This document shows, one piece after another, positions 5,673-54,460 of a stretch of 64,000 nucleotides of DNA. The stretch is from Yersinia canariae (GTDB lineage: Bacteria > Pseudomonadota > Gammaproteobacteria > Enterobacterales > Enterobacteriaceae). The DNA is taken from contig NZ_CP043727.1 in the NCBI RefSeq assembly GCF_009831415.1, forward strand, positions 2,852,001 through 2,916,000. The letters run 5' to 3'. A program made the position numbers and the translations under genes. The notes beneath the pieces were generated by a model that was not told the DNA's origin, searched no databases, and was given only the letters and a program-made list of their open reading frames with translations. How positions within the stretch are numbered: position 1 is the stretch's first letter; each line of letters starts with the position of its first letter.

Positions 5673-5748
5673 TCCTCTGTAGTTCAGTCGGTAGAACGGC
5701 GGACTGTTAATCCGTATGTCACTGGTTCGAGTCCAGTCAGAGGAGCCA
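5673..5748 (+). tRNA. tRNA-Asn (anticodon GTT)
   Basis: A full 76-nt cloverleaf starting TCCTCTGTAGTTCAGTCGGT, with anticodon GTT in the loop CTGTTAAT, T-loop GGTTCGAGTCC and encoded CCA at the 3' end. It matches enterobacterial tRNA-Asn by memory. The island is inserted in its 3' end and the insertion leaves the tRNA complete, because the repeated att core regenerates it. Yersinia chromosomes carry several tRNA-Asn copies, and these are the integration sites of the high-pathogenicity island. Confidence 0.98.
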
Positions 5749-5909: not shown

Positions 5910-7184
5910 ATGTCTTTTAACGACTCAAAAATCCGCAACTTAAAATCATCCGTAAAACCCTTCAAAGTTTCCGATTCTCACGGTCTGTACCTTTTAGTTA
6001 ATCCTGGCGGTTCACGTCTCTGGTATCTCAAATATCGTATCAATAGGAAAGAATCCCGCCTCAGCTTAGGAGCCTATCCTGATGTCTCTCTGGCTGATGC
6101 TCGTCAACAGCGTGACGGTATCCGTAAGCTACTGGTGCAGAATATCAACCCAGCACAACAACGCTCCGCTGAAAGAGCCACTGCGTTACCAGAAGAAACC
6201 TTCAAGTCTGTTGCACTGAGCTGGCATAAAAGCAACAGAGCATGGTCTGAGAATCATGCCGTCCGTCTGCTCGCCAGCATGAATAACCATATTTTTCCGA
6301 TCATTGGGCATCTACCTGTCTCTGAACTAAAACCCCGTCATTTTATCGACCTGCTGAAAGGGATTGAGAAAAAAGGCCTACTGGAAGTAGCGGCACGTTC
6401 CCGGCAGCATATGTGCAACATCATGCGCCATGCCGTGCATCAGGAGTTGATAGATAACAATCCGGCGGCAAATCTGGACGGTATCATCGCCCCTCCGGTT
6501 AAACGCCACTACCCTGCCCTTCCGCTGGAGCGACTATCGGAGCTGTTGACTCGCATCGAGGACTATCAGCAAGGACGAGAATTAACCCGCCTGGCAGTAT
6601 CACTCACCCTTCATCTGTTCATCCGTTCCAGCGAACTTCGTTTTGCCCGTTGGTCTGAGATCGATTTCAGAAACAAGATCTGGACCATCCCTGCCACCCG
6701 CGAAGCTATCCCCGGAGTCCGCTATTCAGGGCGTGGTGCGAAAATGCGCACACCACATATCGTTCCCCTCTCCAGCCAGTCCATCACTATTCTGAAACAG
6801 ATACGGGAAATATCCGGGCATCAGGATCTGATATTTCCCGGTGATCATAATCCGTATAAGCCGATGTGCGAAAACACGGTCAACAAGGCACTGCGGCTGA
6901 TGGGTTATGACACGAAAGATGAAATTTGTGGTCACGGATTTCGGGCAATGGCCTGTAGTGCGCTGATGGAATCTGGCCTGTGGTCACAGGATGCCGTTGA
7001 GCGTCAAATGAGCCATCAGGAGCGCAATAGCGTGAGAGCCGCTTACATCCATAAAGCGGAATATCTCGATGCCCGAAAAGCGATGATGCAGTGGTGGTCG
7101 GATTATCTGGAGACGTGCAAGGGATCGTATGTGCCACCTTATATCCTGAGTGAAAATATCAGACACAAGGCCATCCAAGTCTGA
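5910..7184 (+). CDS. Island integrase, P4-type tyrosine recombinase
   Basis: A 424-residue tyrosine recombinase that would integrate and excise the island at tRNA-Asn. The N-terminal arm-binding domain (about residues 1-90, DUF4102 type, with LRLSLGAYPDVSLADAR-like text near 50-66) is followed by a SAM-like core-binding region (about 95-185) and the catalytic domain. Catalytic residues seen are R239 in FIRSSELR, H342 and R345 in HGFR, H369 in MSH and the nucleophile Y379 in AAYIHKAEY. Length is normal and nothing is missing. The start at 5910 (MSFNDSKIRNLK) has no better alternative. It reads away from attL and is followed by an intrinsic terminator. A fragment of a close relative lies beyond attR at 55082. 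Confidence 0.95.
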   Translation: MSFNDSKIRNLKSSVKPFKVSDSHGLYLLVNPGGSRLWYLKYRINRKESRLSLGAYPDVSLADARQQRDGIRKLLVQNINPAQQRSAERATALPEETFKSVALSWHKSNRAWSENHAVRLLASMNNHIFPIIGHLPVSELKPRHFIDLLKGIEKKGLLEVAARSRQHMCNIMRHAVHQELIDNNPAANLDGIIAPPVKRHYPALPLERLSELLTRIEDYQQGRELTRLAVSLTLHLFIRSSELRFARWSEIDFRNKIWTIPATREAIPGVRYSGRGAKMRTPHIVPLSSQSITILKQIREISGHQDLIFPGDHNPYKPMCENTVNKALRLMGYDTKDEICGHGFRAMACSALMESGLWSQDAVERQMSHQERNSVRAAYIHKAEYLDARKAMMQWWSDYLETCKGSYVPPYILSENIRHKAIQV

Positions 7185-35573: not shown

Positions 35574-36812
35574 TTATGACTTCAGTAAGGGCGACTTTCG
35601 CGCTTCCAGTGCCAGCAAATATTTCGCTTCGTCGTACCGGGTTTTGGTCTTCCAGCAGCGGTAAATGATCCTTATCCATTTAAACGCCAGAGCCCGGAGC
35701 GCTGACTGATGAGATTTTCCTTTTTCTCGCTGCCCCTGATAATAAAGTCTGGCCCAGTATGATGAGTTAACCGTCTTGGCAGCCCATTCAACAAAGGTCT
35801 GCCTGACGAACTTGGCACATTGCCATCGCCAGTGAACCCAGGATTTCTGGCCACTTCGTTCTGTCACCGGTGCAATACCTGCGTAGTTTTGAATTTCTTC
35901 GGCGCTGTTAAACCGATCACGGTTATCACCAAGTGTAGCAAGCATTCGTGGGCCCATACACGGCCCCATGCCCGGAAGTGATTTGAACAGCCCCGCATCT
36001 GGCAATGTGTCAAACAGCGTTTCGATTCGTTCATCATAGGTTTTGATGATTTCACTCACGACTTTAATTTGTCTCGCCAGTGCTGTTGCCATCAAAGCAT
36101 TAGCCTCTATAACACTCGGATCTGTCGTCAACGGGATGGAGTTATCAATACTCGCAACACGCTGCTCGGTAAGGGCCATTGCGCGGCCACCTTTGGCATT
36201 GAGAAAGTTGCGGATCGTGTCGCGCCTAGCTCGTTTTAGTTGTTGCAGACTGGGCCATTGCATAATCAGTTCACACAATAGCAAGCTACCCCGATGTGAG
36301 AACCACTCCAGGGGCTGAGGATAATACTGTTTAAGTGTGTTGATTAGCCGGTTCACAAAACGGCGTTTATCTTCAACCAACTGACGACGCTGCTCAACCA
36401 GTTGCTGAAGTAAGCGAATATCCGCATTGTCGGGTTCAATAGCTTTTATCTTTTGGGGATAGCGCAGCATTAACTCTAATGCCAGCTCAGCATCCTGCGG
36501 GTCATCTTTAGCGCCACTGGGCGAGAAAGCCTGCCGGTAACGAGCCAGGGACAAAGCGTGGACGGGGAAAACGGTGATAAAGGGATATTTTTTAAGAGCA
36601 TACACCACGGGACCTTTCTTCAGCTCAACGGCAATAGCGATCCTGCCTTTTACCTTCTGGTGTAACTCGGTAAGCCAGATATCAAGCGCTTCTGCTGTAT
36701 GTTTAATCACATGGAACACGCGTTCACCGTTTTTAAACTGAACACAGACATCGTGTTTTTTATCTGCCCAGTCCAGACCAACGTGTACAGCAAACTGATT
36801 AGTCACAGTCAT
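35574..36812 (-). CDS. IS110-family transposase (DEDD)
   Basis: 412 residues from the ATG at 36812 (MTVTNQFAVHVGLDWADKKH), preceded by AAGGAG; the frame is open for 34 more codons upstream but lacks homology there. The N-terminal RuvC-like DEDD domain shows GLDWADKKHDVCV, the second acid in VELKKGPV, and AKDDPQDAELALELM; the C-terminal Tnp domain carries LPGMGPCMGPRMLATLGD and the serine region NYAGIAPVTERSG. IS110 enzymes recombine at short cores guided by a bridge RNA encoded in the element. Both domains look intact. Confidence 0.93.
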   Translation of the reverse strand: MTVTNQFAVHVGLDWADKKHDVCVQFKNGERVFHVIKHTAEALDIWLTELHQKVKGRIAIAVELKKGPVVYALKKYPFITVFPVHALSLARYRQAFSPSGAKDDPQDAELALELMLRYPQKIKAIEPDNADIRLLQQLVEQRRQLVEDKRRFVNRLINTLKQYYPQPLEWFSHRGSLLLCELIMQWPSLQQLKRARRDTIRNFLNAKGGRAMALTEQRVASIDNSIPLTTDPSVIEANALMATALARQIKVVSEIIKTYDERIETLFDTLPDAGLFKSLPGMGPCMGPRMLATLGDNRDRFNSAEEIQNYAGIAPVTERSGQKSWVHWRWQCAKFVRQTFVEWAAKTVNSSYWARLYYQGQREKGKSHQSALRALAFKWIRIIYRCWKTKTRYDEAKYLLALEARKSPLLKS

Positions 36813-37030
36813 CACCAACTCCTTTTTATCGGGGATTGGTATGCATTCCACGTTCTTCGAAAGAAATATAGCCAGCAGTTTATCTGCATGCCCTGAGTAT
36901 TCGTTAGCGAACATGGAGCACCTACTGGCTCGAAAGAAAAGCGGCGATCATCGCATGATTCTCGCTCAATATTCGTAACCAGTAAGCGCATACCCTGAAT
37001 CACTTCAAAGTGTAATTCTCAGGGTGCGAA
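36813..37030 (-). ncRNA. Candidate bridge RNA region of the IS110 element
   Basis: In the IS110 group the long non-coding left end, upstream of the transposase, encodes a bridge RNA with target- and donor-binding loops. Here about 200 non-coding bases lie upstream of the transposase start on its strand. They include a long hairpin at 36988-37028, GCATACCCTGA...TCAGGGTGC, with an inner CACTTCAAAGTG stem. Exact RNA ends and guide loops cannot be fixed by eye. Confidence 0.4.
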
Positions 37031-37287: not shown

Positions 37288-38232
37288 TCAGGCTTTATCC
37301 ATCAAATAACGATGCGCTTTTGAGGCGGCGCTGGCCGCTTTGAAAACATAGCGCTTATCGTTTTTCAGCGCCTGGAGCCATGAGGCAATATAGCTTTCAT
37401 GCTGCACCTCTCCGATGATCCCCAGATCCGCCATCAGAAAAGCACTTCCCAGCTCCGCCACTAATTCCTCCTCCGCATAATCTGCACTGCCAAATTTCCC
37501 TTTCATTTCACGGTTAAGTCGTTTTTTACCACCACTCCAGTGAACCAACTCATGCAGTCCGGTAGCATAGAAATTAGCTGCATCTGAAAACAGATGGCGC
37601 TCTGGCAGCCAGACTTCATCAGTTGAGGGCCTGAAAAAGGCGTTTTGTCCTTTCTCAATGATGTTTGCGCCGCTCTTCTGGAACAGATTTTCAGCCTTCG
37701 GCAATGGGTCAAAGGTTGCTTCCGGGCTGACTGTTTCAGTTGTCAGCGGGAGGCCGTCAATTTGCTGAACGTTAAACACGGTGAAAGTTTTCAGCATCGG
37801 GATCTGGTCGATTTCGCCGTCTTCGTTTTCCTTCTCCAGAGTGGTGTAGAAAATAGCCGTTGTGCCGCGCTCTCCCTTACGGACATGACCACCTACTGCC
37901 TGTGCTTGTTTGTAGGTCATCCAGCGTGAATCACAGAAGCCCTGTTCTGATGCACTGCACCAGAGCAGCATGATATTCATTCCACTATACGCGATACCGG
38001 TTGCGAAGTTAGAAGGCAACCCAGACATGCCCGGCACTCGTTGCCACGGGCAAGACCATGGTTTTACACCTGCTTCAAGCGCTGCAATGATGTTGTCGGT
38101 GACGGTCTGATAAATATCTGTTCTGGTTTGAGAAAATTTCGTTTTTGAGGAGCCTGACTGCTCCAGCGGGGATACGCTGGTCGCCGCTGCGGTGTTAGGG
38201 GCGCTAGTCTGGGTATGCAGGGAAATCGTCAT
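37288..38232 (-). CDS. ardC: ArdC-like antirestriction protein
   Basis: 314 residues from the ATG at 38232 (MTISLHTQTSAP); the longer frame to 38313 lacks homology. The N-terminal ssDNA-binding domain (about 35-160, with TDNIIAALEAGVKPWSCPW and SGMNIMLLW) is followed by a zincin-like domain with HELVH at 227-231 and EELVAELGSAFL further on. ArdC proteins of plasmids and conjugative elements protect incoming single-stranded DNA from restriction. It stands alone on the minus strand between IS110 and a decayed gene. On an island that also carries a mobilization module, it fits an entry-protection role. Confidence 0.92.
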   Translation of the reverse strand: MTISLHTQTSAPNTAAATSVSPLEQSGSSKTKFSQTRTDIYQTVTDNIIAALEAGVKPWSCPWQRVPGMSGLPSNFATGIAYSGMNIMLLWCSASEQGFCDSRWMTYKQAQAVGGHVRKGERGTTAIFYTTLEKENEDGEIDQIPMLKTFTVFNVQQIDGLPLTTETVSPEATFDPLPKAENLFQKSGANIIEKGQNAFFRPSTDEVWLPERHLFSDAANFYATGLHELVHWSGGKKRLNREMKGKFGSADYAEEELVAELGSAFLMADLGIIGEVQHESYIASWLQALKNDKRYVFKAASAASKAHRYLMDKA

Positions 38233-38642
38233 GGTTTTTTCTCCGTCAGTGGTGTGATTTTCGTCTTCGTATCGCCTGACGGTTCGCTTTCCCGGCATCG
38301 TTCCGGCCAGCAAGGGCGCAGAATGCGTGCCATTTACCCTTGTGGGACGGGTTGTGTTGGGAAACGATTAACCGAAAGCTGATACGGGAACGGAAAGCAC
38401 GCGGGAGAAAAAACTGACACTGCATAGCCGTGCGTAGCGCCCCTTGCAACGCAGATGTGAAATGATTTTTTTAGCGAAATATGATCTTGAAGTATTTAAA
38501 AGTAGAACTTACTGCGAAAAATACCACAATAATTTACGGTCAACATAAAAATACGGCAAATATCAAAAAGCGTGTGGAAATAGAATAGGTGTACCGACAG
38601 GTGCAGTTATACAGACCTCTATTTTTAAGTGAGAATTAATAA

Positions 38643-40189: not shown

Positions 40190-41347
40190 TTATTCACAAT
40201 GCAAGTAAAACTGAAATGCCGATCTTTTTGGATCTTGTGTATCAATCACATAAAAATTTCGAGGAAAACTTCCTTCTACGCTTCGACCTAAGTGACTTAA
40301 ACCATACATTGATAAAAGACGCCCGACTATCCTTTCTGACTCAGGAAAAATCTGCGAGGGGATTCGAAATACCTTTATTGTAAAACCATTAGCAAGCTGA
40401 ACTCGAAGAGTGATTAAGCCATCCCACTCCTCAACGTCCAGTAACTGCCCGATAATATCATAGCCAGAAAACACAGGTCCAAACTGATGTTGCTGCAAGT
40501 GTTGCTGTAGCTTTTCACGATAAACAGGGCATAAGCAACGACTTATACATGTAACGCAATGTTTTCCAGTTTGTACAAGAGCTTCGGCATAAAAAGTCTT
40601 ATTCAACGGTAATGTATTGTTCAATCTACTAAGAATATGGATAAGTCGGTCATTCTGGATTGTATCCAGATGTCCCAACCAGCGGTCAGAAGCACCTGCC
40701 AGCTCTAATTCGATATCAACATCAGGAATCTGTTCTTTCACCATCATTCCATATGCCGCAATTTGCAGAAAGTAATGGTCTTTCGGCTGGTTTGTTTCAT
40801 CCAATACGTTGCCGGTTTTGAAATCTACGACCCGTATCGACCCCGAGTCTGTTTGATAAATCAGATCTGCTCTTCCAATCATATTGAACTTGGAGCTGGT
40901 AAGTAGTTTTTCTCTGCCAAAAGGAATTATGCCTTCTTGCTTTTCGAGCCTGATTGGCGAGTATTTTCCTCGCTCAGCAAAAGGTTTAGTTATCGATTTA
41001 GCATAGCGAACTTGTTCAAGCAGCATCTGACGGGATATTATTCCTGAAATGCCGTAACGTTGAAGAACCCATTCAGTAATGGGCCCTGCCCGTTTAGTAT
41101 TACTCAATGCACTAATGAAGGAACTCTCTAACAGCTCAACAAATGAGGCTGGCGTACCATCTAAATCCTTTTGCGATGTATTCGCCAACCAATGTACAAC
41201 ACTTCCGAGAATCGTCCGAGGATGTAATGATACCTGGTGGGTAGTATGTAGTTCACTCTCCAGTAAGTATCTCGCTGGGCATGCAATAAACACTCCTAGC
41301 TTAGACGGGATCGCCGGACGAGTACGCGTAAGTGTTATAGCATTCAT
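40190..41347 (-). CDS. PD-(D/E)XK nuclease, RecB/Cas4-like, with probable Fe-S cluster
   Basis: 385 residues. The RecB-family nuclease motifs are visible: H52 in GSVVHWLA, D161 in GRADLIY, D175-x-K177 in VVDFKTGN and Q195-x3-Y199 in LQIAAYG. A single cysteine at 23 (IACPARYLLE) and a C-terminal cluster at 264, 267, 271 and 273 (HCVTCISRCLCP) match the four-cysteine Fe-S arrangement of Cas4 and AddB. It starts 7 bp after the druE stop, so it is the last gene of the defence operon. It should cut or process DNA; in this context it may degrade phage DNA unwound by DruE. It is not part of the four-gene Druantia type II set as I know it. Confidence 0.85.
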   Translation of the reverse strand: MNAITLTRTRPAIPSKLGVFIACPARYLLESELHTTHQVSLHPRTILGSVVHWLANTSQKDLDGTPASFVELLESSFISALSNTKRAGPITEWVLQRYGISGIISRQMLLEQVRYAKSITKPFAERGKYSPIRLEKQEGIIPFGREKLLTSSKFNMIGRADLIYQTDSGSIRVVDFKTGNVLDETNQPKDHYFLQIAAYGMMVKEQIPDVDIELELAGASDRWLGHLDTIQNDRLIHILSRLNNTLPLNKTFYAEALVQTGKHCVTCISRCLCPVYREKLQQHLQQHQFGPVFSGYDIIGQLLDVEEWDGLITLRVQLANGFTIKVFRIPSQIFPESERIVGRLLSMYGLSHLGRSVEGSFPRNFYVIDTQDPKRSAFQFYLHCE

Positions 41348-41354
41348 ATCGCTC

Positions 41355-44300
41355 TCAATCCTCCTTATTACCGTCAGGGTTTCTTAGCTTGGTCATAACA
41401 GCCCCCATACGACGAGATAGATCAAAAGTACTGATCGTTTTTTTCTCCAGTTGCCACTCAAGGAATAACCTTTCAAGTTCAGGGTTAGCAGTAAAAACTC
41501 CATCCACGCTCCAGAATGGATGGGTCACCGCAACCCAGCGTTGTGGGCCAATGTTAATCAACGGAATATGGCCTACCACTCTAATTTCACTATTAAAGAG
41601 TGATGCCGCCTCTTCGGCTAAACTCACGGCATTTTCTCGCCAGTCAGCGATACCTGGAGCTGAGAAATCACCATTCAATCCAGCATCATAATTTTTATCC
41701 AGTAGCAGTTGAATAACATCCAGCCCAAGTCGCCAATCAAGCAACCCGTGATAAGCCTGATTACCATATCGGTGCAGGCAGTGATAACACGCCTGAATAC
41801 ATTTTTTCGGATGATCATTGTCCAGAAACTCTTTTAGCGGGAAGCCATTTTTGTTGCTGACAATAGCTTTCATTACCTCAAGAATTATAGGCGTACCGGA
41901 TGTTCCTTTCTGTTGTAGACGCTCGCATAATCCGGAACCATTAACCAGACGATCGGCCATTTGCAGTATCGATGCCAGCCTTCCGTCCGCTAATCGTTGG
42001 ACTCGCGGCTCCAGAATTTCGATTTCTTCAGGATCAATATCAAACAACTCTTTTGAAGCATAGTTAACAATAATAAATGCAGCAGAGAGCGCTGCGGCCC
42101 GGAATGCTGGCGTCTGTAACTGAAGACCAACAGGGGTGTTAACCACCATCAGAGCCAACAAGTCCGTCACTTTAGGTGCGGCAAGATAAAAAGAAGTTCT
42201 ACTTTCCTGCAAAGGTGTGAACCGTCTTTTCAATAAAGGATCAGTCTCAAGCAATTGGCTATCAACCCAAACGCGATTTGCCGTTAATGACTGATACACC
42301 CCCTCCTTTCTAAAGGGAACTCGTAAGTTTCCCTGTAGCGCATTGAAACCGCTCCACCGTTCATCAGCATAAGTGCCGCGATTAAGACGGTGAAGACAGA
42401 TTTGAGATTCAAGTTGAATAGCAACATTAGCATCAAACTCTGCCCCAGAAGAAAATGAGTATGCCTCAGCAATAGAAACTCGGCTGGCATTGGTCAGGGT
42501 TTGCTCGAGGTCCTCTTTGACAGATTTATCCTCCAGTGAGGTAAGAAACCCATAAGGTACATAACATTGGTACTGCTCAACATCATCTATCACCGCACCG
42601 CAAGAGGTGCATTCGCGGATCGTATGATTGATTGGAGTCCAGACATGACACACTGGACAGGCCGTCATCGTTCGACCTTCACCCAGTTCATTCACGTTAG
42701 AATCAAATTCTATAGATTTAGGATAGCGTTGCCGAAGCATCCCAGCATAGCCTGCCGTTAAGTAGCGCCGTTTGTCCTGTACCAAATATTTTCTCGGCGC
42801 AAATTCTTGTATCGCAATGTCCAGATCGCGATCCATGCTAGCAAATTGGATATCATTTTCATTAGTAGTAATGGCCCTGGTATGTAACAGACGCGTGCGA
42901 GTTGGCATGCCATACATCGGGAATTGCCCTCGCTCAGCCAATGCCTCTGCCAGCCCTTTACCTGCCATCGCATCGTCGTTTAGCGCTGCATCAATATCTT
43001 GTATCAGCTTGTCGGGGGTCAGTAATCGTACAATGTTTTGATAGAAGGATTGATCATCCGGCATGCAGACATGGGCAAATTCATCACGATCTCTCATCGT
43101 TGCTGTTAATGCCTGACGGATACGTGGTAGCCAGTCGATCCAATAGTCTTTTAGCCAGTCAACTTGAAAAAACTCGCCGTGGTTATCGGGTTTTTGCCTG
43201 TGTTCATCCACAGGCCATGACTGGTGTGAATTAATTGAGTTCTGTCTTAACCATTTGAACGCAGCCACCAACCAGACTTTGCGTACCAGTCGCTGGCAGA
43301 TCATTTCCAGCTTGGTGGTTAAGAAAGGCGGTGGTGGAAGGTCGCCAGTTATTTTTTCTGGATGGCGGAAGTAAAACAGATCATGGCTTTTGCTACGACA
43401 TGCAGTCAAAACGAAAGCAAAAGCCTGCCCACGTCGTCCAGCACGACCAACACGCTGCTGGTAGTTAAAACGCTGTGGTGGCATGTTGGCCTGAAAAACG
43501 GCACGTAAATCACCGATATCAACGCCAACTTCCATAGTGGTTGTGACAGAAAGCACATCAACAACGCGGGCCAATCTGTCCAGATCCTGGTCAGGTTCGA
43601 AGTCTTTCAGACCTGTTGGTAAAATATCATCATCATCTGCAATCAAAATACCTTTGAAACGGCGTAATCTTGCCGCTGGGTTTCCTGTCATGCCGGTAAG
43701 TTCTTCAGAACGCATACGACGGATGCCGGATGAGTATGAAATGCGTTTTCCGAGATAGTTTTGTTTTTGCAACATTCCAGCTTCGCCGGACGGTATTTCA
43801 GGCAACGGAGCATGGCAGCGGGTACAAATTTTTGCCCCCAAATGTAAGTGGACACGCCCGCACTTATCGCAACGCCAGAAACTATCGGCAGGATCGGTCA
43901 AGCGGAAGTGTACTTTACCAATATCAATAATGCCGCCTTGATGACCCACTAGCTCAAGCAGCGCAAGAAATTTATCGATTATAGAAGTATGGTCGCCACC
44001 AGAGTGTTGGCAAACCCGGCTGGCAAAACGGTGTAACCGGCTATTTGGAGAAACATCATCAGTGGAATGCCAGAGTGTTTCTTTGGTTGTGTATTGTGAT
44101 GGTTTTACACGGTAGGCATCGGCCTGTACACGTAGCATAGCGTCAAATATTGCCAGTTGTTGCCGTGTATAGTTGCCAGAAATTGGAAGACAAGGATAGC
44201 CCCATCCGGCCTCTTCCAGCGAGAAATACGTTTTACTGAACACGCTTTCACCCGCCAGTTTTCTCAAATCCCACGAGATCTCTTTGCGCGCAACATCCAG

Positions 44301-47300
44301 ATCGTCTTCATAAGAAGGATGCGCCTTCCAGCACCATTCCCCTTGAGGGTCTCGACTAAATAACTGCTGCCACACAAAAGTGGTGATATCTTCATGGTGA
44401 TTTGCCGGGTCAGGAACAGCAGTGATCCCCGTCCGATCGGTCGGGTGAATACCAGCTTCAACCAATTTAGCCAGCAGTCGGTTAAGCCGCTTACCCGATT
44501 CAGGCGCTGAGGGTTCCAGTATTTCACCCAGTGAAATACTGTCGGCCAGTGGCAGCTCCAATTTCTCTTCCAGCATGCGCCTCTCACGAAAAAAATGCTC
44601 AAGCTCCTGATCTTCTTCTGGCGTCAAACCGCCGGCAACCTCTTTATTGACTAATTCCTTTCTGCGCTTAACTAGCCCAGATAATTGTTCTTGCAGTTTT
44701 TCATACGAGCATGAGCCTACGGCTAGATCTTGTAGTGAATAGACAAGGATCTCCCTCCGGATATCATCATGATGCCCAGATTCAAGATCGAGCGCCGCTT
44801 TGGCCGCATCCTGTCGACTGTCGGAAAAAGTGACCAACCGTTCCTGATCGCCGGAACGTTGTAGCTCCGTCATTAATGTACTGGCGAGTAACTGTGTGGT
44901 TTTCGCAAAACCAACTCGGAATCCACGAATAGGTGACTGTTTTCCTTTACCATATTTGTACGAGGTTTCACATGCGGGGCACTGAAAAGGTAGCGAGGAT
45001 CCAGGGGACTGATTAGACGATTGATCTCTTTTCGGGGAGGAAAAGTCACCTGGTTTTACATAATAGAACCAGCCTGGAATATCAGTTTCAGCTAAGGGTT
45101 TTACGGGCGATATAGGTTGAATAGTTGCAGTGAACGGATCATAGCTTGCTTCTTGCCACTGACCAAAAGAGTCACTATCCGCAAGTTTTTCTTTACCCAA
45201 AGGCCAGAATCTATCTATGGTTGGCATAAATAAGGCATACTCTTCTGCTGAGCGCCGCTCAATCATGACCGATTTAGCATGTTCCGGAAGTTTTTCGGTA
45301 TCAGGATCGTTGGGTAATAGTTCTATACGACGGCTATCTATCGCGGAGAAAGCGGAAGGTTTACCTCCCAGAAATAGCGTAGCGCAGCATTCACAATAGA
45401 GTAATTCCACACACCGCGATCGCTTATCACCATACCGACGATTACCATAGCGGAAGCCGGATTCGACAGTCATGTCGGCAAATAACCATTGGTTTCTTTC
45501 GTCTTTATCTGCTTGTGGCGGTGATGGCAGCGGAGCAACATATAATCCTTCCAATGCGCGTAAAAATGCATGGGCACGGAAACGCGGTAGTACGATGTGA
45601 TCAGGAAAAGGATGTGCAAACCACTGCTGCCAACTATCAACCGTCGTCCGTATCAAGATTAGCGCACTGACACCCCTACGCGCATCAGGATGCTCCCCAA
45701 ATAGATTGCCTGCCAGTGCGTTGATAGCGGTTGCACGTAGAGATTTGTTATCATCAATACATCCTTTTTCCAGCATTCTGGCAGCCAATAAGACCGTATG
45801 CTGCGCCAATTCTTCTATAGCAACACCATCGCGGTAGCATCCCAGACTACGCGCTATGTCGCACCATATTACAGATGCCTCCGGTGACTTTAGTTTCTCA
45901 ACCGCCTGACAAAACGCAGGAAGATCGCCACAAAAACACGATATATCAACCAGTTCCTCGAGTTTTCCATCAACAATGCAAGCCCTCCAGTCCTTCGAGC
46001 TGGCATTCATTGGTAATCCGCGTTGCCCAAACATGCCCCATAGATAGTCAATACTTTGATTACCTTCCTGACCACTCACTGGGAGTGAAGCACTCGAAGC
46101 CAGAATTCGTAATTTGTGTCGATGTTGTGGTTGATCTAACCCCAGACGGTTGATCAAATGTTTAAGCAAATAGCTGACTTCAGTGCCTGCCGTGCCGCGC
46201 TGGAGATGCAGTTCATCGAGCACAAGGTAAAAGTAGGCGTTCGGATCGCGTTTAATCCATAGTTGGGTCTGATCAAAGATAGGATCGTCAATTTCACGCA
46301 CCAGCATAGTTGAAAGCATGCTGGTGTTGGTAATGAGGATATCTGGTGGCATCTTTTGCATTTCCCAGCGGCTAAGCACTTCACCTCCGCCTGGCCTAGG
46401 GAAATTGAACTGTAGATTATCATCCTTATCGAGGTTCCCTTGATGCACCGCCTCTTTATGGGTCTTTTCAGCAAATTGCATATATTCACGTAATTCAGCA
46501 ACTTTACCTGCGGCACGTTTTTTCTCTTTTGGCTCATTACCCTGTCGAGGATGATCCAACCACCCAGTCACTTTGGTGGCACTGGTATAACGACCAAAGA
46601 AAATACGATTGCCACCAAAATGGGAATCCATTACCTCATGAGCTTCATCAGAATCGAGAGCCCTGCGCATACGCACTAATTGATCTTCTACCAGCGCATT
46701 CATCGGATAGAGGATTAATGCTCGCACAGCTTTTGGCCTCCCAGAAGCAGGAGCTTCTCGATCTCGCATAAAGGTTGGTTGGGCATTTGGTTCACGCCAC
46801 CATGGTTGCCAACTTTTAAGTGCAGAACTTTGCGACCATTGACTTGCCTCTTTGGCAATTTGTGCCAGAACAGGTAGCAAGAAGGATTCTGTTTTACCAG
46901 AGCCCGTTCCTGAAGTAACAATACCGGGCATACCAGGTTGCACACCTCGTTGTAACATTTCTAATTGATGGGTATAAAGTTTAAAATGCCCTTTGGTCGC
47001 ATCCTTGGGATCGCGTGGCAAAAGTCCACCCAGACATAGATCGATAAACGCAGCCCTTTGCTGAACGGTAAACCCCGGCAGCCATTTATCCCCTTTAGAG
47101 GCATCCCGTAGATCACTAATGGTTAAATTATAATCCTTATATCTTGGCATCGGTTCCAGAAATAGATCCGCACATAACGTCCCTTGCTTTTCAAGTAATT
47201 CTCGGCGATACGCCTGAATGGCAGGAGAACCAATACGGAAGGCCGTCTCAAGATAAGCGATGTAAAAATCCCTTATTGATTCAAACGTTTCTAATGGGTT

Positions 47301-47306
47301 GTTCAT
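41355..47306 (-). CDS. druE: DruE-like giant helicase with DUF1998 domain, Druantia core protein
   Basis: 1983 residues from the ATG at 47306 (MNNPLETFESIRD), which has AGGAAGGGAC upstream; a start at 47339 would overlap druG. Walker A TSGTGSGKTES is at about 131-141 and the DEAH-like box VLDELHLQRG near 375; helicase domain 2 carries ATTTMEVGVDIGDL-type text and QRVGRAGRRGQ. Zinc-ribbon pairs are seen (CDKCGRV...CTRC and CPVCHVW...CTSC), and the DUF1998 C-terminus reads CIQACYHCLHRYGNQAYHG...LDW. DruE is the one protein common to all Druantia types. It sits between druG (14 bp) and the nuclease gene (7 bp). Confidence 0.92.
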   Translation of the reverse strand: MNNPLETFESIRDFYIAYLETAFRIGSPAIQAYRRELLEKQGTLCADLFLEPMPRYKDYNLTISDLRDASKGDKWLPGFTVQQRAAFIDLCLGGLLPRDPKDATKGHFKLYTHQLEMLQRGVQPGMPGIVTSGTGSGKTESFLLPVLAQIAKEASQWSQSSALKSWQPWWREPNAQPTFMRDREAPASGRPKAVRALILYPMNALVEDQLVRMRRALDSDEAHEVMDSHFGGNRIFFGRYTSATKVTGWLDHPRQGNEPKEKKRAAGKVAELREYMQFAEKTHKEAVHQGNLDKDDNLQFNFPRPGGGEVLSRWEMQKMPPDILITNTSMLSTMLVREIDDPIFDQTQLWIKRDPNAYFYLVLDELHLQRGTAGTEVSYLLKHLINRLGLDQPQHRHKLRILASSASLPVSGQEGNQSIDYLWGMFGQRGLPMNASSKDWRACIVDGKLEELVDISCFCGDLPAFCQAVEKLKSPEASVIWCDIARSLGCYRDGVAIEELAQHTVLLAARMLEKGCIDDNKSLRATAINALAGNLFGEHPDARRGVSALILIRTTVDSWQQWFAHPFPDHIVLPRFRAHAFLRALEGLYVAPLPSPPQADKDERNQWLFADMTVESGFRYGNRRYGDKRSRCVELLYCECCATLFLGGKPSAFSAIDSRRIELLPNDPDTEKLPEHAKSVMIERRSAEEYALFMPTIDRFWPLGKEKLADSDSFGQWQEASYDPFTATIQPISPVKPLAETDIPGWFYYVKPGDFSSPKRDQSSNQSPGSSLPFQCPACETSYKYGKGKQSPIRGFRVGFAKTTQLLASTLMTELQRSGDQERLVTFSDSRQDAAKAALDLESGHHDDIRREILVYSLQDLAVGSCSYEKLQEQLSGLVKRRKELVNKEVAGGLTPEEDQELEHFFRERRMLEEKLELPLADSISLGEILEPSAPESGKRLNRLLAKLVEAGIHPTDRTGITAVPDPANHHEDITTFVWQQLFSRDPQGEWCWKAHPSYEDDLDVARKEISWDLRKLAGESVFSKTYFSLEEAGWGYPCLPISGNYTRQQLAIFDAMLRVQADAYRVKPSQYTTKETLWHSTDDVSPNSRLHRFASRVCQHSGGDHTSIIDKFLALLELVGHQGGIIDIGKVHFRLTDPADSFWRCDKCGRVHLHLGAKICTRCHAPLPEIPSGEAGMLQKQNYLGKRISYSSGIRRMRSEELTGMTGNPAARLRRFKGILIADDDDILPTGLKDFEPDQDLDRLARVVDVLSVTTTMEVGVDIGDLRAVFQANMPPQRFNYQQRVGRAGRRGQAFAFVLTACRSKSHDLFYFRHPEKITGDLPPPPFLTTKLEMICQRLVRKVWLVAAFKWLRQNSINSHQSWPVDEHRQKPDNHGEFFQVDWLKDYWIDWLPRIRQALTATMRDRDEFAHVCMPDDQSFYQNIVRLLTPDKLIQDIDAALNDDAMAGKGLAEALAERGQFPMYGMPTRTRLLHTRAITTNENDIQFASMDRDLDIAIQEFAPRKYLVQDKRRYLTAGYAGMLRQRYPKSIEFDSNVNELGEGRTMTACPVCHVWTPINHTIRECTSCGAVIDDVEQYQCYVPYGFLTSLEDKSVKEDLEQTLTNASRVSIAEAYSFSSGAEFDANVAIQLESQICLHRLNRGTYADERWSGFNALQGNLRVPFRKEGVYQSLTANRVWVDSQLLETDPLLKRRFTPLQESRTSFYLAAPKVTDLLALMVVNTPVGLQLQTPAFRAAALSAAFIIVNYASKELFDIDPEEIEILEPRVQRLADGRLASILQMADRLVNGSGLCERLQQKGTSGTPIILEVMKAIVSNKNGFPLKEFLDNDHPKKCIQACYHCLHRYGNQAYHGLLDWRLGLDVIQLLLDKNYDAGLNGDFSAPGIADWRENAVSLAEEAASLFNSEIRVVGHIPLINIGPQRWVAVTHPFWSVDGVFTANPELERLFLEWQLEKKTISTFDLSRRMGAVMTKLRNPDGNKED

Positions 47307-47320
47307 AATATGTCCCTTCC

Positions 47321-50137
47321 TTATGACTGAAACAGGCAATCAAGTACCGCAGCAGCCTCGCCCTGCGTAATTTCCCGAGCATAATTCGTTAGTGTTGGCG
47401 CTAGTGGCTTAATATCTGAAACGATTTTCTCTGATGTACTACGCCCAGATTCAAACGCCAGCTTGGTAATCGCCTGTGATTTTTCATCAGAATAATGGAA
47501 AGATTTCAGTATCGTTTGTAGGGTTTGCTGTTCATTAAAATGATGAGTATTAGATTCACGGATACTTGTATAAAGCGATTGCCATAATACTGATGTTACA
47601 TAGGTGGGTGCGATGTCAGTAGTATTATTGGCGGGTTGTTCATCACCCCAGATGCTTTCGGCCAGAAACATTGGCAATCTGTGAGCAGTAGGTCCCTGTA
47701 ATGGGAACGTGCTTTTACCAACAGCAAACGTCAACACAAATAGTATAGGTTGGCTGATTGAAAGATGGCGCAGTGTCTGATGTTGATCCATCCAGCAAAA
47801 TCCGGATGCTTGTTCGTCACTGAGCAGGCAGTCACTCAACTCAGGTAACAATGTCTCTGGTGGCGTACGGTTAAATCCACGTAACTCCACCACCGTAGCC
47901 AATCCATTATCTTGCTGGTGCAGCAAAAAATCCCCCAGAGTCATGGAGCATGTGTTTTCCGCACTTCTGATTAAAACCGGAGATTTCATTAAATCACCGA
48001 TGCTAAACAGATCACCGTGGATAGAAACTTCCCCTCGAACTCCGCCCGAAAAAACATTCGCTATAGCAGAAAGCGCTTTTTTAGTGTGTTTTCCCAATAA
48101 TCCAACAATAGGTGTTACATTCGCAGCAGCGACAATGCCTGATAATAAGGTTTCACTTAGCCCTGTTGCAGCTGCCTGTTTTTCCATCACTGTCAATAGC
48201 TGCCTTTTACTGGTTATCTCAGTTGCTATTGGCGATAGATACGGTTCTGTCTGCGGTATAGATAATGCTGCTACAATGGCGGATTCAGGTTTAACTGTTA
48301 ACTCGGGTTGAGAAACTGGCACCGTTACATCAGCGATCAGTGCACGCAATAAGGCCGCTTGTGCTAGTGTTTCGACACCGGCTTGTGATGCATTTTCGAA
48401 AGTTTGTCTGATACGTGAATCCAGTTCAAGTTCCTGCTGGCGAAGCGCTTTTTTTGATTTCTCTGTTTCATTTTTTAAGTGTTTTTTCTGTTTATCAATT
48501 TCCACTTCAAGCTGTGCTTTCTTGTCAACCAGAGAAGAAATAGCCTGTTTTAATTGTTCCTGTTCACTTTCATACTCAGCCAGAATCGCGTTCTTCTCTA
48601 CATTAATTTGAGCATCTATTACGGGCAATTTCAGCAGTTGTTGGACCATATCGTCCAACAGCTCTCTTGAATCAGCAATCTGTTCGAGATGAGTCAAGGC
48701 ACGGTGATAGGCACTACTCTCTGGCTCATACTCAGCAATGAAATGAGTTAAATTTTGTAAATGTGATTTATTAAATACAGGGAAGTTCGTTGATGAATGA
48801 TTTCGCTTTATCAGACGTTTTATCCATGTACCAGCGGGCGCACAATCGTATTTTTCGCTGGCTACAGGAAGTCGAGTCACAATGGTTGCTTTCTGTGAAT
48901 GTAATTCAATATAGGCCAATTTTCTGTAGCTATCGAGTGGTACATCGAAGTTATATTTTTTAGGATCAGAAAAATCGCCGGGAAGTCTTAACGCTACCCC
49001 ATCATCCAGCAAAAAAATAGCAGGAGATTCATCCTGTGGTTGATACTGAGTTAACAACCACTCTCTGACAGAGTCAGGGTCACTGGATAAGTGGGGGACT
49101 CTGACGACGAGGTATACACGCGATTGGTAGTCAGCCAGTACGTATTGCGCATTTTTGTCAGACGGCCGATGTTCTACCTGCCATATCCCTAACTCTCCCT
49201 GAGTGAAAATTTTGGTGTAATTGTTTATAAACCCAACAACTTCACCACGATGGGGATACATAATTTTCGCTTGTTCTTCAGAAAGCGACCAAACTTTATC
49301 ATTAATAAACAAGGCAATAGGTGAAACGAAGAAAGCATCATTAGGAAGCAATTTGGTAACGGCACCGACAAAAGCTACGCTGTCGATGACATAATCATCC
49401 ATATCCTCTGTTGCAATAAACTCTGCCGATAAAACTTCAACGCCATTAGCTTCTTTCTGGTTATGAGCAAACTCAAATTCCGAGATAATACTTTCAAATT
49501 TCTGCGCCATAGGGAAAGCATGTGTGGATAGCTTTTCCTTCCATGCGCTGGCTGCCTCTTGCTTACCATTAAGCGTATCAACAAGAGCAGCTACAAACAT
49601 CGGAAATATACGATCGGATGATGCATCGAGACCTTGGCTGATTAGTAAGCATTGTTCCAGATCATCTTCCGTCACATTGATGCTTTGATGCTCAGGCAGA
49701 TTCTCTGAGTCTTCTTCGACATCATCATGGGGTGACAATACCGGCTCGTCATTGAGGAATCGCTCAATGATTTCAGGACATGGCTGAGAAATATAAAATC
49801 CTAAAATATCGCGCCACAATAGCTTTGATGATTCTATGTCGTTACCATTTTTTTCTTTTAACAGGATGTCATTAAGAATTTTATTGGGATCAACTCGTTC
49901 AGAAAACTGTGTGTTAGCTCGAAGCCATGTCTGGATAACAATCTGAGCTTTAGGTTGTAACTCAGTTAAAAAATGTAGTTGTTGAGATAGCGTTTTAGGT
50001 AAGTTATCCGCTTTAGCACCCGCCATAATAAGTTTCTGCTTACACTCTTTCAGGCAGTTGATTCGCTCGTGAGATTCTAAACCATAGCAATACATTTGGC
50101 TCAAGCGTACTTTAGTAAATTGTTGTTTTTTAGCCAT
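47321..50137 (-). CDS. druG: DruG-like protein of Druantia type II
   Basis: 938 residues without a domain that I can name. The N-terminal 150 residues are helical; a coiled coil lies at about 510-580 (EYESEQEQLKQAISSLVDKK and onward, rich in Glu, Lys and Gln in heptad spacing). Aspartate-rich acidic stretches occur near 135-150. Assignment rests on place and size: it lies between druF and druE in the gene order of type II Druantia. The druE gene begins 14 bp after its stop. Function in the complex is unknown; a scaffold or sensor role is a guess. Confidence 0.75.
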   Translation of the reverse strand: MAKKQQFTKVRLSQMYCYGLESHERINCLKECKQKLIMAGAKADNLPKTLSQQLHFLTELQPKAQIVIQTWLRANTQFSERVDPNKILNDILLKEKNGNDIESSKLLWRDILGFYISQPCPEIIERFLNDEPVLSPHDDVEEDSENLPEHQSINVTEDDLEQCLLISQGLDASSDRIFPMFVAALVDTLNGKQEAASAWKEKLSTHAFPMAQKFESIISEFEFAHNQKEANGVEVLSAEFIATEDMDDYVIDSVAFVGAVTKLLPNDAFFVSPIALFINDKVWSLSEEQAKIMYPHRGEVVGFINNYTKIFTQGELGIWQVEHRPSDKNAQYVLADYQSRVYLVVRVPHLSSDPDSVREWLLTQYQPQDESPAIFLLDDGVALRLPGDFSDPKKYNFDVPLDSYRKLAYIELHSQKATIVTRLPVASEKYDCAPAGTWIKRLIKRNHSSTNFPVFNKSHLQNLTHFIAEYEPESSAYHRALTHLEQIADSRELLDDMVQQLLKLPVIDAQINVEKNAILAEYESEQEQLKQAISSLVDKKAQLEVEIDKQKKHLKNETEKSKKALRQQELELDSRIRQTFENASQAGVETLAQAALLRALIADVTVPVSQPELTVKPESAIVAALSIPQTEPYLSPIATEITSKRQLLTVMEKQAAATGLSETLLSGIVAAANVTPIVGLLGKHTKKALSAIANVFSGGVRGEVSIHGDLFSIGDLMKSPVLIRSAENTCSMTLGDFLLHQQDNGLATVVELRGFNRTPPETLLPELSDCLLSDEQASGFCWMDQHQTLRHLSISQPILFVLTFAVGKSTFPLQGPTAHRLPMFLAESIWGDEQPANNTTDIAPTYVTSVLWQSLYTSIRESNTHHFNEQQTLQTILKSFHYSDEKSQAITKLAFESGRSTSEKIVSDIKPLAPTLTNYAREITQGEAAAVLDCLFQS

Positions 50138-50220
50138 CCTGATTGAACTCCTTTACATGCCAACTCAATAAATTCGTTGTGAATCTAACAACCAAGTAAA
50201 AATTTTTCGTGCTGTTAGTA

Positions 50221-53004
50221 TTATCGGCTTCTACGTAATTTTAGCGCCCGCGAGCGGCGAACAATCGCCCGGTCGTCATACTCTTGCGTAGTAGCTTCTG
50301 AAGGATTTATATTTCCCCAAATCGAAGCTCCGCCGCCAACAAATAAAATCTGGCCGTCATCGCCAATGGAAAGACAACCACCAGCGAAATGTAACCACCA
50401 TTGTGTGAGAGAAAGCGGCAACGTTATTAGGTTTTTTGACCAAAAAAGATCGCCGTTATGGCTCTGAGAACCCAATGTTTTCTTTGAAAAAATAGCCTGA
50501 GCCATCAATCCCCAGGCAAAACTATTAGTCTGCCAGTAGCCATTTTGACTAGTAATAAAATAGCGATTGCGCTGTTTCTCCCGAGAACGTATGAAAGTAT
50601 TACTGCTGTGGTCAATTAATGTTGACTCTTCAGACCAATCCTTTTTCTCTTCCAGCCAAGTCGACACATTTATATTGACGGGTAACGATGGAATACTTTC
50701 TATCTGAGTGATTGGTAAAATCACACCACCTAATGGACTGACAGAAAAATCTGCTTTGGTAATAAACCGCAAACCAAACTGTTTAACCAGCAACTCTGCA
50801 CGCTCAACGCTCGATAAATTTAGCTCAATACAGCCTATGGCAAGATCATGGCCTTCTAATGACCACCTTTTAATCTTCTCATTATCTGCCAGCACGCATT
50901 GTAGTTGATTGCGTTCACTTTTTGTCATCATTCCACTAATACGAGCTACTGTGCCCACTTTCTCGTCAAATACGGAGATTGTACGGGGTGTCCGTATTAC
51001 TAAGGGATAAGGTGTATACCGACTTTCAGCCACAGAAAGAAAACCAGACATAAATAGCATTCGACGTAGTCGCCAAGCGGGAATACCTATAGCTTTGGAA
51101 ACGGGTATGAGATGTTTATTCAGTTCATCAAAAGGCAGCGTGCTACGCCTTTGAAAACGTAGTGCCAGCGCTTCAGTTAACCAATCAAGTGCCACAGGAA
51201 GAGAATGCAAGCCAGTAGATTCACGTTCTGCAGGAGGTGATTCATGTTGTTGCCATAATGACCACTCTCCCCCCAAAGGAGTTAGCTTCTGTTTATTCAC
51301 AAATTCAGAATTAAACTCGTTACGAGCAACATCATCAAGTGACACTAAAACACCCAAAGGACCATCAACTAACCAATTACCAGGTTCTTTTAACCGTCGA
51401 TAAAGCGCATCAGGAGCGTGGTCTAATACATGAACATCATAAATCAGAGGAGTAATTTGTTGGTCTACTGCTAATAGATAGCGACATAGTGTTTGCCCGT
51501 GAATGGAAACCAATTTCTCCGGTGAAATAAATAGCCCTTCATCACTAACCGAAAGTTCGCCTGTAGCAAGTTCATTACCTACAGAATCGTTAATTACGAA
51601 CCTTCCGCTGTTTGCACCTTCCATGCGAATAAACGGAGTACTTGCTGGATTAAGTAATACCGCCTGTCCAAATCTGGCTCCACCAGTAAGATGGGGCCTT
51701 GCAGGCATCCAACTGTGTATCAAAAAACGTTGAGCATTTTTAGGAAGTGCATTCCTTAAGGTAGACAGTGCTTGCCGGCTTACTGCGTCAAAAACGAGAA
51801 TATTCCATTTATCACGTTCTGAATTAATCCCCAACGAACTAAATCTTAAATTAATATTCTTACACGCCACAACAATGCTTTTCACATAACGACTATTTAT
51901 CACCAGACAAACCGGACCATTATCAAAATAATGACCGTCAGAGCTAATATAGCCTGAGTCATCCTGAAACAATGGCAGGCATCCCACCTGCAATGCCATT
52001 CCTATTCTCGATTGATAAAGCCCTTTATTTTGTTTTTGTGATAATGTCGAAATGTGTATCAACATATTATCAATATTAGATTGATAGTAGCCCTTAGTAT
52101 AAATACTTGTCTGCTGTGGTAATGTATATACCTCTTGTTCAGAAAACACATCCGTACCTTTCTGATCCATCAGTAGATAGATTTCTGGATTCCACACATC
52201 AGCAGAATCTAGTTGTATACAAAATCTACCATTCTCTGCTATTTTTTGGTTTTCATCATGTCTTGTGATGTCTCGAACAGCTCCCCAAAATGGGCTATTG
52301 TAAGCCTGTACCGATGAAGATTTTAATAGCAGGTCTCTAAACTGACTAAATTCACTAATGAATATTAGGCTAAAAGAATTTATCCTTTGATGAATAGCTT
52401 GGCTAACTTCTTCAAATGTTGAATGACTATCTAATTCTTTATTGGACAGTATACGCCTTAGTAATAAATCATCTTTGTAAGAAGGGAAGGAAAGTCGTTT
52501 AGAATAACCTATTAATCTTTCTCGTTGAGGATCAGGCAAAAGTAGGCACGCGCATTCTTTGTTATTATGGCTCCATCTTTCTAAACGCTCCCACATTTTT
52601 GGAAGTTCACTAAAGATAAATTTTTTATCTTTAGTGAAACCCAATAGAAGGGAAAACCTGACACGGAAATCACCTTCGTCATGAGTATCATCGTCAGCAC
52701 TAGCTGCGAGTAACGTTAAATATAAGACAGCAAAATGAGGAGGAACACCGTTTATCCCTGCTAATATATCAAGCCTTAATTCATCTCTAAAATGATTTTG
52801 TATCTCATCAGAGCTATTGCCAAATGCTTTCAAAAAACTATTTTTAGCTTCCCTTTTGCTACGCGAACCTTTTAATTTATCAAAAATTCGCCCGGTAGCA
52901 TCAATTCGACTCAATGTTAACCCGACACAAGAAGGATCAAAAAAAATATCTTTGACCAGGGCTGCATTCCACTCATCTAGAGTAACCGGAAATAAGTCGC
53001 CCAT
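50221..53004 (-). CDS. druF: DruF-like protein of Druantia type II
   Basis: 927 residues, no recognised catalytic motif. It is soluble, with no signal peptide or membrane segment. The C-terminal half has beta-rich text (PLGGVILPITQIESIPSLPV) and winged-helix-like stretches. It begins 4 bp after the druM stop, with AGGTG upstream of the ATG at 53004, so the two are translationally coupled. It is named from gene order (M-F-G-E). The 83-bp gap before druG is the only sizeable spacing in the operon. Confidence 0.74.
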   Translation of the reverse strand: MGDLFPVTLDEWNAALVKDIFFDPSCVGLTLSRIDATGRIFDKLKGSRSKREAKNSFLKAFGNSSDEIQNHFRDELRLDILAGINGVPPHFAVLYLTLLAASADDDTHDEGDFRVRFSLLLGFTKDKKFIFSELPKMWERLERWSHNNKECACLLLPDPQRERLIGYSKRLSFPSYKDDLLLRRILSNKELDSHSTFEEVSQAIHQRINSFSLIFISEFSQFRDLLLKSSSVQAYNSPFWGAVRDITRHDENQKIAENGRFCIQLDSADVWNPEIYLLMDQKGTDVFSEQEVYTLPQQTSIYTKGYYQSNIDNMLIHISTLSQKQNKGLYQSRIGMALQVGCLPLFQDDSGYISSDGHYFDNGPVCLVINSRYVKSIVVACKNINLRFSSLGINSERDKWNILVFDAVSRQALSTLRNALPKNAQRFLIHSWMPARPHLTGGARFGQAVLLNPASTPFIRMEGANSGRFVINDSVGNELATGELSVSDEGLFISPEKLVSIHGQTLCRYLLAVDQQITPLIYDVHVLDHAPDALYRRLKEPGNWLVDGPLGVLVSLDDVARNEFNSEFVNKQKLTPLGGEWSLWQQHESPPAERESTGLHSLPVALDWLTEALALRFQRRSTLPFDELNKHLIPVSKAIGIPAWRLRRMLFMSGFLSVAESRYTPYPLVIRTPRTISVFDEKVGTVARISGMMTKSERNQLQCVLADNEKIKRWSLEGHDLAIGCIELNLSSVERAELLVKQFGLRFITKADFSVSPLGGVILPITQIESIPSLPVNINVSTWLEEKKDWSEESTLIDHSSNTFIRSREKQRNRYFITSQNGYWQTNSFAWGLMAQAIFSKKTLGSQSHNGDLFWSKNLITLPLSLTQWWLHFAGGCLSIGDDGQILFVGGGASIWGNINPSEATTQEYDDRAIVRRSRALKLRRSR

Positions 53005-53008
53005 CGCA

Positions 53009-54094
53009 TCACCTGCTTTTTATCGAAAGATTCTTCAAACCTGAGCCTGAAAAAAGGTGGCTAAACAGAACCTCAGCTAACATAGGGGGAACCGCATTAC
53101 CTATTTGGGTAAATTTGGCATCAATATCCCCCACCGGTTCATAATCGTGACGAAACGATTGTATGCGGGCACATTCTCGCCATGACAAACGTCTGGCCTG
53201 TTCCAATCTAGGGCGAGTATCATCAACTACTATATGTTCATATTCATCAGAAAAGTCCCAGCGCTGTTTCCAGCCATCCTCAAGGTTTGACCATGTTAAT
53301 TTCATGACTGGGCTTGCTGGGTGCAATGTGACATGTCGCCAGTTAGCTACCACTGTATAAGCTGGGCTATCCCACTTTGCCTTACGATTCCTCGACATGA
53401 AATACCATGAAAAATGGCCTTCAGGATCATGAGGGCGTTCATAGAACTCTCCTTCAGGCCATAAAGGCAAATCACAGATAGCATCACCATGTGATGCATA
53501 AGGCTTTAGGTGAGGATTCTTCAGACTTGGCTTACCGTGTGTTGCAGGGGGGAATTCAAAACATTGCCCTAAATCGTTTCTAACACCGACAATAAATAAA
53601 CGCTTACGTGATTGTGGAACACCATATTCCCTGGCATTAACCAGATGATAACTAACCTGATATCCAGCTTGCTGGTATGCTGTAAGTTGTTGTTCTAAAA
53701 AGCTACCTGCACCAAGTTGCTGCAACCCCGACACATTCTCTGCAACAAAATATTTGGGGCGAACAATATTTAATACACGCAAAAATTGCCTATAAAGATT
53801 CGTTCGAGTATCGCTCTCCGGTTTCCTATTACCAGCCATCGAAAACGATTGGCAAGGGTAGCCGCCAACAACGACATCAACATGTGGAAAATTTTGGATA
53901 TTTGATATATCGCCAAGCCTGACTTCTGATTCTGGAAAATACTTCTCTAAAGTCTTACAAGCGTTTTCAACAATATCATTTGCGAAAACAACCTGACCTC
54001 CGGCAGATTCAATACCAAAATCCATACCACCACCGCCAGAAAACAGTGAAAGAACTTGGATGTTGTTATGCTCTCTTTCAAAAATATTGTTCAT
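53009..54094 (-). CDS. druM: DruM-like C5 cytosine DNA methyltransferase
   Basis: 361 residues with the full C5-cytosine set: LSLFSGGGGMDFGIESAG (AdoMet binding, about 15-32), the catalytic VVGGYPCQSFSMAGNRK (cysteine near residue 81), FVAENVSGL and REYGVPQSRKRLFIVG, and the C-terminal QIGNAVPP. It is the first gene of the Druantia type II operon, where the methylase is thought to mark self DNA. The upstream 345 bp to attR hold the promoter. No restriction enzyme other than the operon's own proteins is present. Confidence 0.92.
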   Translation of the reverse strand: MNNIFEREHNNIQVLSLFSGGGGMDFGIESAGGQVVFANDIVENACKTLEKYFPESEVRLGDISNIQNFPHVDVVVGGYPCQSFSMAGNRKPESDTRTNLYRQFLRVLNIVRPKYFVAENVSGLQQLGAGSFLEQQLTAYQQAGYQVSYHLVNAREYGVPQSRKRLFIVGVRNDLGQCFEFPPATHGKPSLKNPHLKPYASHGDAICDLPLWPEGEFYERPHDPEGHFSWYFMSRNRKAKWDSPAYTVVANWRHVTLHPASPVMKLTWSNLEDGWKQRWDFSDEYEHIVVDDTRPRLEQARRLSWRECARIQSFRHDYEPVGDIDAKFTQIGNAVPPMLAEVLFSHLFSGSGLKNLSIKSR

Positions 54095-54440: not shown

Positions 54441-54460
54441 CCAGTCAGAGGAGCCAAATT
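54441..54460 (+). other. attR core, 20 bp
   Basis: CCAGTCAGAGGAGCCAAATT, identical to 5733-5752. The 5' part of the tRNA is absent here, so this is the displaced end of the original tRNA-Asn gene, and the original tRNA terminator follows. Confidence 0.93.

Follow-up and report, generated by a model that had tools for sequence, protein, structure and literature searches.

Two of the described systems with which a Druantia type II locus can be compared share with it a DUF1998 helicase and differ in the nuclease. In Druantia type III (DruH-DruE) the core is likewise a DUF1998 DruE of the YprA family, which has been described as a helicase-nuclease in its own right, its PLD domain being active (PMC13192584 and PMC12458937, both in part). 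DISARM (DrmA, DrmB, DrmMII, DrmC) also combines a DUF1998 helicase unit and a C5 methyltransferase with a nuclease that is encoded separately and frequently absent, the PLD protein DrmC (PMC9142583, in part). Druantia types I and II have been termed a fourth kind (type IV) of CoCoNuT in which the CnuB homologue is inactive, and their DruE is described as carrying a predicted inactivated Vsr domain (PMC12458937, in part); the nuclease section of the same preprint mentions no separate nuclease for these two types. The literature searched gives no account of how type II stops phage, and its helicase is without a recognisable active nuclease. Here we analyse a type II operon in a 64,000-nucleotide stretch of the Yersinia canariae genome (hereafter, the window), in which the genes druM, druF, druG and druE are followed by druK, encoding a putative Cas4/RecB-type nuclease. 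We lean towards the view that the locus represents a DruK-bearing sub-branch of Druantia type II, in which DruK would be the helicase-coupled effector nuclease cutting the strand exposed by DruE.

The assignment to Druantia type II, originally proposed in a first-pass annotation of the window, is supported by matches to the PADLOC type II models DruM2, DruF2, DruG2 and DruE2 in the order druM-druF-druG-druE, and PADLOC-DB profiles match all five products at near full length (Table 1). DruF, which has no assigned function, gave no Pfam match, and we know of no DISARM counterpart of either DruF or DruG. The only model matched by the druG product was DruG2; it is presumably the CnuB-like protein of the literature (an inactive McrB-like GTPase with a coiled coil; PMC12458937, in part). 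The druE open reading frame (ORF) was listed as 41355-47339, starting from TTG and encoding 1994 amino acids (aa); the ATG at 47306, preceded by AAGGAAGGG, appears to be the better start. The distances between consecutive genes (4 bp for druM-druF, 83 bp for druF-druG, 14 bp for druG-druE and 7 bp for druE-druK) make the previously suggested single transcript of five genes plausible by spacing, although druF and druG stand further apart than the others; promoter-like sites numbered 33, versus 34.9 expected. The 7-bp junction ahead of druK, noted already in the first pass, agrees with the ORF coordinates, and a ribosome-site-like AAGGAGG lies inside the last druE codons, ahead of druK.

DruK aligns with PADLOC profile PDLC00058 over profile positions 1-385 of 388 (E=1.5e-196, 650.7 bits), and both this full-length match and its DruM2, DruF2, DruG2 and DruE2 neighbours identify the locus with Druantia type II plus the PADLOC DruK family, with no difference at the profile level. 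The fifth gene, initially taken as a novelty, is not supported as one, because PADLOC-DB 2.0.0 (2023) already lists the family as DruK, described just as "PD-(D/E)XK nuclease superfamily". No paper containing both "Druantia" and "DruK" was found in a literature search to which supplementary files, where the definition may sit, did not belong. The main text of the PADLOC paper, in the part available, names DruL and not DruK, and the YprA-helicase preprint (PMC12458937) has no match for "Cas4". Beyond the PADLOC entry, our analysis adds the OB-fold, the restriction to a sub-branch and the selection data presented below.

Residues ~9-276 of DruK are predicted to form a PD-(D/E)XK nuclease domain (Pfam PDDEXK_1, E=2e-19), and residues ~277-385 a C-terminal OB-fold, the barrel of which was recovered in the predicted structure. 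The pattern of the Fe-S (iron-sulfur) nucleases of the RecB/AddB/AdnA/Cas4 kind comprises a PD-(D/E)XK core with QxxxY and an N-terminal Cys plus C-x2-C-x5-C. DruK displays all of these elements, with conserved H52, D161, D175, K177, Q195 and Y199 (the Q195xxxY199 motif) at the active-site positions and conserved Fe-S-type cysteines at C23, C264, C267 and C273. The first-pass description of a Cas4/RecB-type nuclease linked to type II Druantia is supported, and the nuclease looks intact; the numbering of D175 and K177 given there is correct in the translation, and the cysteine cluster noted with them consists of C23 and C264-x2-C267-x5-C273. These conserved residues suggest that DruK may hold an Fe-S cluster and cleave DNA. 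Its predicted structure is that of an AdnA/Cas4-type nuclease with the OB-fold at the C-terminus; the best fold match is AdnA, and AdnA and Dna2 are the closest solved relatives by fold. In AdnAB and AddAB the nuclease domain, which has the Fe-S cysteine pattern in common with DruK, is coupled to a translocating motor, and in AdnAB it is part of the superfamily 1 (SF1) motor chain itself, whereas DruK is a stand-alone protein encoded beside a superfamily 2 (SF2) helicase. DruK also resembles Cas4, including the Argonaute-associated ACE1, in fold, motifs and cysteine pattern, but it scores below the cut-off of the curated family (NCBIfam TIGR00372, 21.9 bits vs 65), adds the OB-fold and has another gene neighbourhood; no CRISPR genes were noticed among the window proteins scanned (a part of them, with no test aimed at cas1 or cas2). 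As a separate PD-(D/E)XK protein with Fe-S-type cysteines and an OB-fold, it differs both from the PLD nuclease DrmC and from the PLD nuclease within type III DruE. In DruE of the window no nuclease active site was recognisable by eye in the C-terminal domain, in agreement with the published account for types I and II (PMC12458937, in part).

DruK was detected in four distinct genomes (G000, G646, G1229 and G1235), in each of them with druE alongside (4/4); the genomes searched yielded no copy remote from type II druE. In the samples for order, genus and families, which overlap one another, DruE2 was present in 5 and DruK in 2 out of 394 genomes of the order (E ≤ 1e-100 and E ≤ 1e-6, respectively), both in the same 3 out of 25 genomes of the genus (DruE2 at E ≤ 1e-80), DruE2 in 3 and DruK in 1 out of 152 genomes of the family of G646, and DruE2 in 3 out of 149 genomes of the window's family, where the genome-wide search was made with DruE2 only. 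A profile search for further DruK proteins yielded at least 36; the cluster pairs P0001/P0036, P0004/P0037 and P0013/P0038 (DruK/DruE) have longest contigs of equal size, which fits linkage and gives no rate. No relative was found in viral contigs scanned with DruK and DruE, and no match in phage records or E. coli genomes. Searches with DruG in 369 genomes of the class, and with DruE in 249 genomes of the phylum (E ≤ 1e-80), returned no copy besides the window's own. Among 72,556 plasmid records DruK occurred in one, from Rubrobacter.

To follow the linkage at the level of loci, 22 DruE neighbourhoods were read (the window, L002, L011, L038, L012-L026 and L031-L033). The count is made without intermediate DruE relatives (P0046-P0154, with about 36-58% identity in the C-terminal part, from the 120 listed of 585 matches), and without H14-H19, six of the 18 plasmid records matched by DruE (≤43% of the query covered). 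DruK follows druE in 5 of the 22: the window, L002, L011, L038 and the Rubrobacter plasmid L018. All loci with a close DruE (≥68.9% identical to that of the window) have it (4/4: the window, L002, L011 and L038), compared with 1/18, L018, of those with a distant DruE (about 25-39% identity), so that DruK marks one sub-branch. The junctions in L002, L011, L018 and L038 are likewise tight. No counterparts of the window's small ORFs past druK, of ardC, of the YobI-like gene or of yjbR were found in the other loci tested, and hence druK seems to be the last gene of the shared unit. The patchy presence of DruK and the existence of solo Cas4 proteins (PMC5704561, in part) would suit a Cas4-type nuclease that is merely carried along by the operon as a passenger, without contributing to its function. 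We consider this very improbable, given that no genome searched showed DruK anywhere but beside type II druE, that the close loci have the same tight junction and that a distant homologue lies immediately behind druE on the actinobacterial plasmid L018.

The 17 neighbourhoods without DruK weigh against a universal role of the nuclease. They include L031, where druM, druF, druG and druE stand in order (its druG matching another PADLOC model, PDLC00025), and DruK therefore cannot explain all type II systems; the idea that it is the general answer to how phage DNA is inactivated has to be given up. Of two observations that the first-pass annotation had named as speaking against a functional subunit, absence from most related loci was indeed made, and occurrence beside unrelated genes was not, the nuclease always standing with type II druE within the genomes searched (4/4 distinct genomes). 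As separate observations on these loci, druE is broken in two of them: in L032 it is divided between two pieces that lie in different frames, and in L020 it carries an IS21 insertion. In L012 and L013 the gene directly behind the distant type II-like druE, of ~541-543 aa, matches NERD/UvrD-type helicase models and possibly represents another DruE partner.

In a midpoint-rooted FastTree phylogeny, one clade (support 1.0) unites the four close DruK loci with five further proteins that do not enter the DruK count. L018 lies at the base of the type II crown, which includes DruK-less alphaproteobacterial loci, a placement that would fit either an ancestral DruK with later loss or two gains. The druK gene is under purifying selection, with ratios of nonsynonymous to synonymous substitution rates (dN/dS, computed with a Nei-Gojobori script) of 0.135-0.185. 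Between L011 and L038 the ratio is 0.185 for druK, 0.125 for druE, 0.068 for druM, 0.219 for druF and 0.226 for druG, and similar dS values (0.25-0.32 for all five genes) indicate that the genes travelled together in this pair. Between the window and L002 it is 0.135 for druK, 0.110 for druE and 0.145 for druG; here the dS values are unequal and near saturation (1.76, 0.89 and 1.43), and nothing firm on co-inheritance follows from this pair. Between the two groups that bear DruK, the identity of L011 and L038 to the window is higher for DruM (81%) and DruE (69%) than for DruF (51%), DruG (52%) and DruK (44-45%).

The DruK-less neighbourhoods could also mean that DruK, although linked, is a helper without which the system can do, comparable to DrmC: DruE together with the remaining Dru proteins would block or unwind phage DNA, and DruK would add a degradation that host nucleases can supply as well. 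DrmC is reported to be dispensable and not to co-purify with DrmAB (PMC9142583, in part), and Druantia III is sensitive to the loss of RecD (PMC13192584, in part), and host nucleases can accordingly contribute. Against such a helper stand the retention of DruK in 4/4 loci with a close DruE and its dN/dS values, and we regard it as rather unlikely. Linkage and purifying selection favour DruK as a functional subunit.

In the mechanism we propose, DruM would methylate host cytosines and thereby mark self, DruF and DruG would help to recognise foreign DNA, DruE would load on phage DNA and unwind it, as its family suggests, and DruK would cut the exposed single strand on DNA unmarked by DruM, DruE and DruK thus acting as a two-gene AddAB/AdnAB-like machine. 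A broader and more tentative version, possible rather than probable in our estimate, is that in one type II sub-branch a DruE with a dead in-cis nuclease and an in-trans Fe-S nuclease with an RPA-like OB domain would form a machine for degradation that resembles AddAB/AdnAB, is based on an SF2 DUF1998 helicase and is controlled by self-methylation; DruK would then date back to the root of the type II crown, represented by the Rubrobacter locus, and would later have been lost where other nucleases serve. The closest solved fold relatives of DruK, AdnA and Dna2, act in DNA repair, and druK is the last gene of the operon; DruK might accordingly protect the host, by repairing or trimming DNA damaged by DruE or by limiting DruE toxicity, without attacking phage. 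This appears quite improbable, since the 17 neighbourhoods without DruK imply that DruE is generally tolerated in its absence.

The operon lies at the far end of a probable ~48.7-kb genomic island, as judged from a pair of 16-bp repeats, one of them at the 3' end of tRNA-Asn, and from the adjoining integrase (Table 1); over 100 shuffles the mean number of such matches was 0.00. Other genes on the island include one for a YobI-like P-loop ATPase, a second candidate defence gene, one for an ArdC-type anti-restriction protein, and two transposase genes. A coupling-protein-like piece and a methylase-like ORF (22708-26298) are possible remnants of a conjugative element.

Table 1. Features of the Druantia locus and the surrounding island (window coordinates)
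Feature	Position	Strand	Description
druM	53009..54094	-	C5-cytosine DNA methyltransferase, 361 aa; PADLOC DruM2 PDLC00031, 733.8 bits; Pfam PF00145, E=1.4e-66
druF	50221..53004	-	927 aa; PADLOC DruF2 PDLC00022, 1615.7 bits
druG	47321..50137	-	938 aa; PADLOC DruG2 PDLC00024, 1677.6 bits
druE	41355..47306	-	YprA/DUF1998 SF2 helicase; PADLOC DruE2, 2550.4 bits
druE-druK junction	41348..41354	-	7 bp
druK	40190..41347	-	385 aa; PD-(D/E)XK nuclease + OB-fold; PADLOC DruK PDLC00058
tRNA-Asn(GTT)	5673..5748	+	ARAGORN; probable island integration site
16-bp direct repeat, first copy	5733..5748	+	3' end of tRNA-Asn
16-bp direct repeat, second copy	54441..54456	+	island far end, ~350 bp upstream of druM
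Tyrosine integrase	5910..7184	+	adjoins tRNA-Asn; Pfam PF00589, PF13356, PF22022
Type IV secretion system coupling-protein-like piece	23629-24444	+	within 22708-26298
N6/N4 DNA methylase-like ORF	25114-26298	+	
IS30 family transposase	28520-29701	-	inside island
YobI-like P-loop ATPase	31303-35142	-	1279 aa; PADLOC Tmn, 590.1 bits
IS110 family transposase	35574-36914	-	inside island
ArdC-type anti-restriction protein	37288-38313	-	same island as Druantia operon

For Druantia type II, a linked and conserved nuclease points to a gene and to residues that can be altered, and makes the question of how phage DNA is destroyed directly testable, with the DruK-less relatives providing a natural comparison between degradation as a core step and as an added one.
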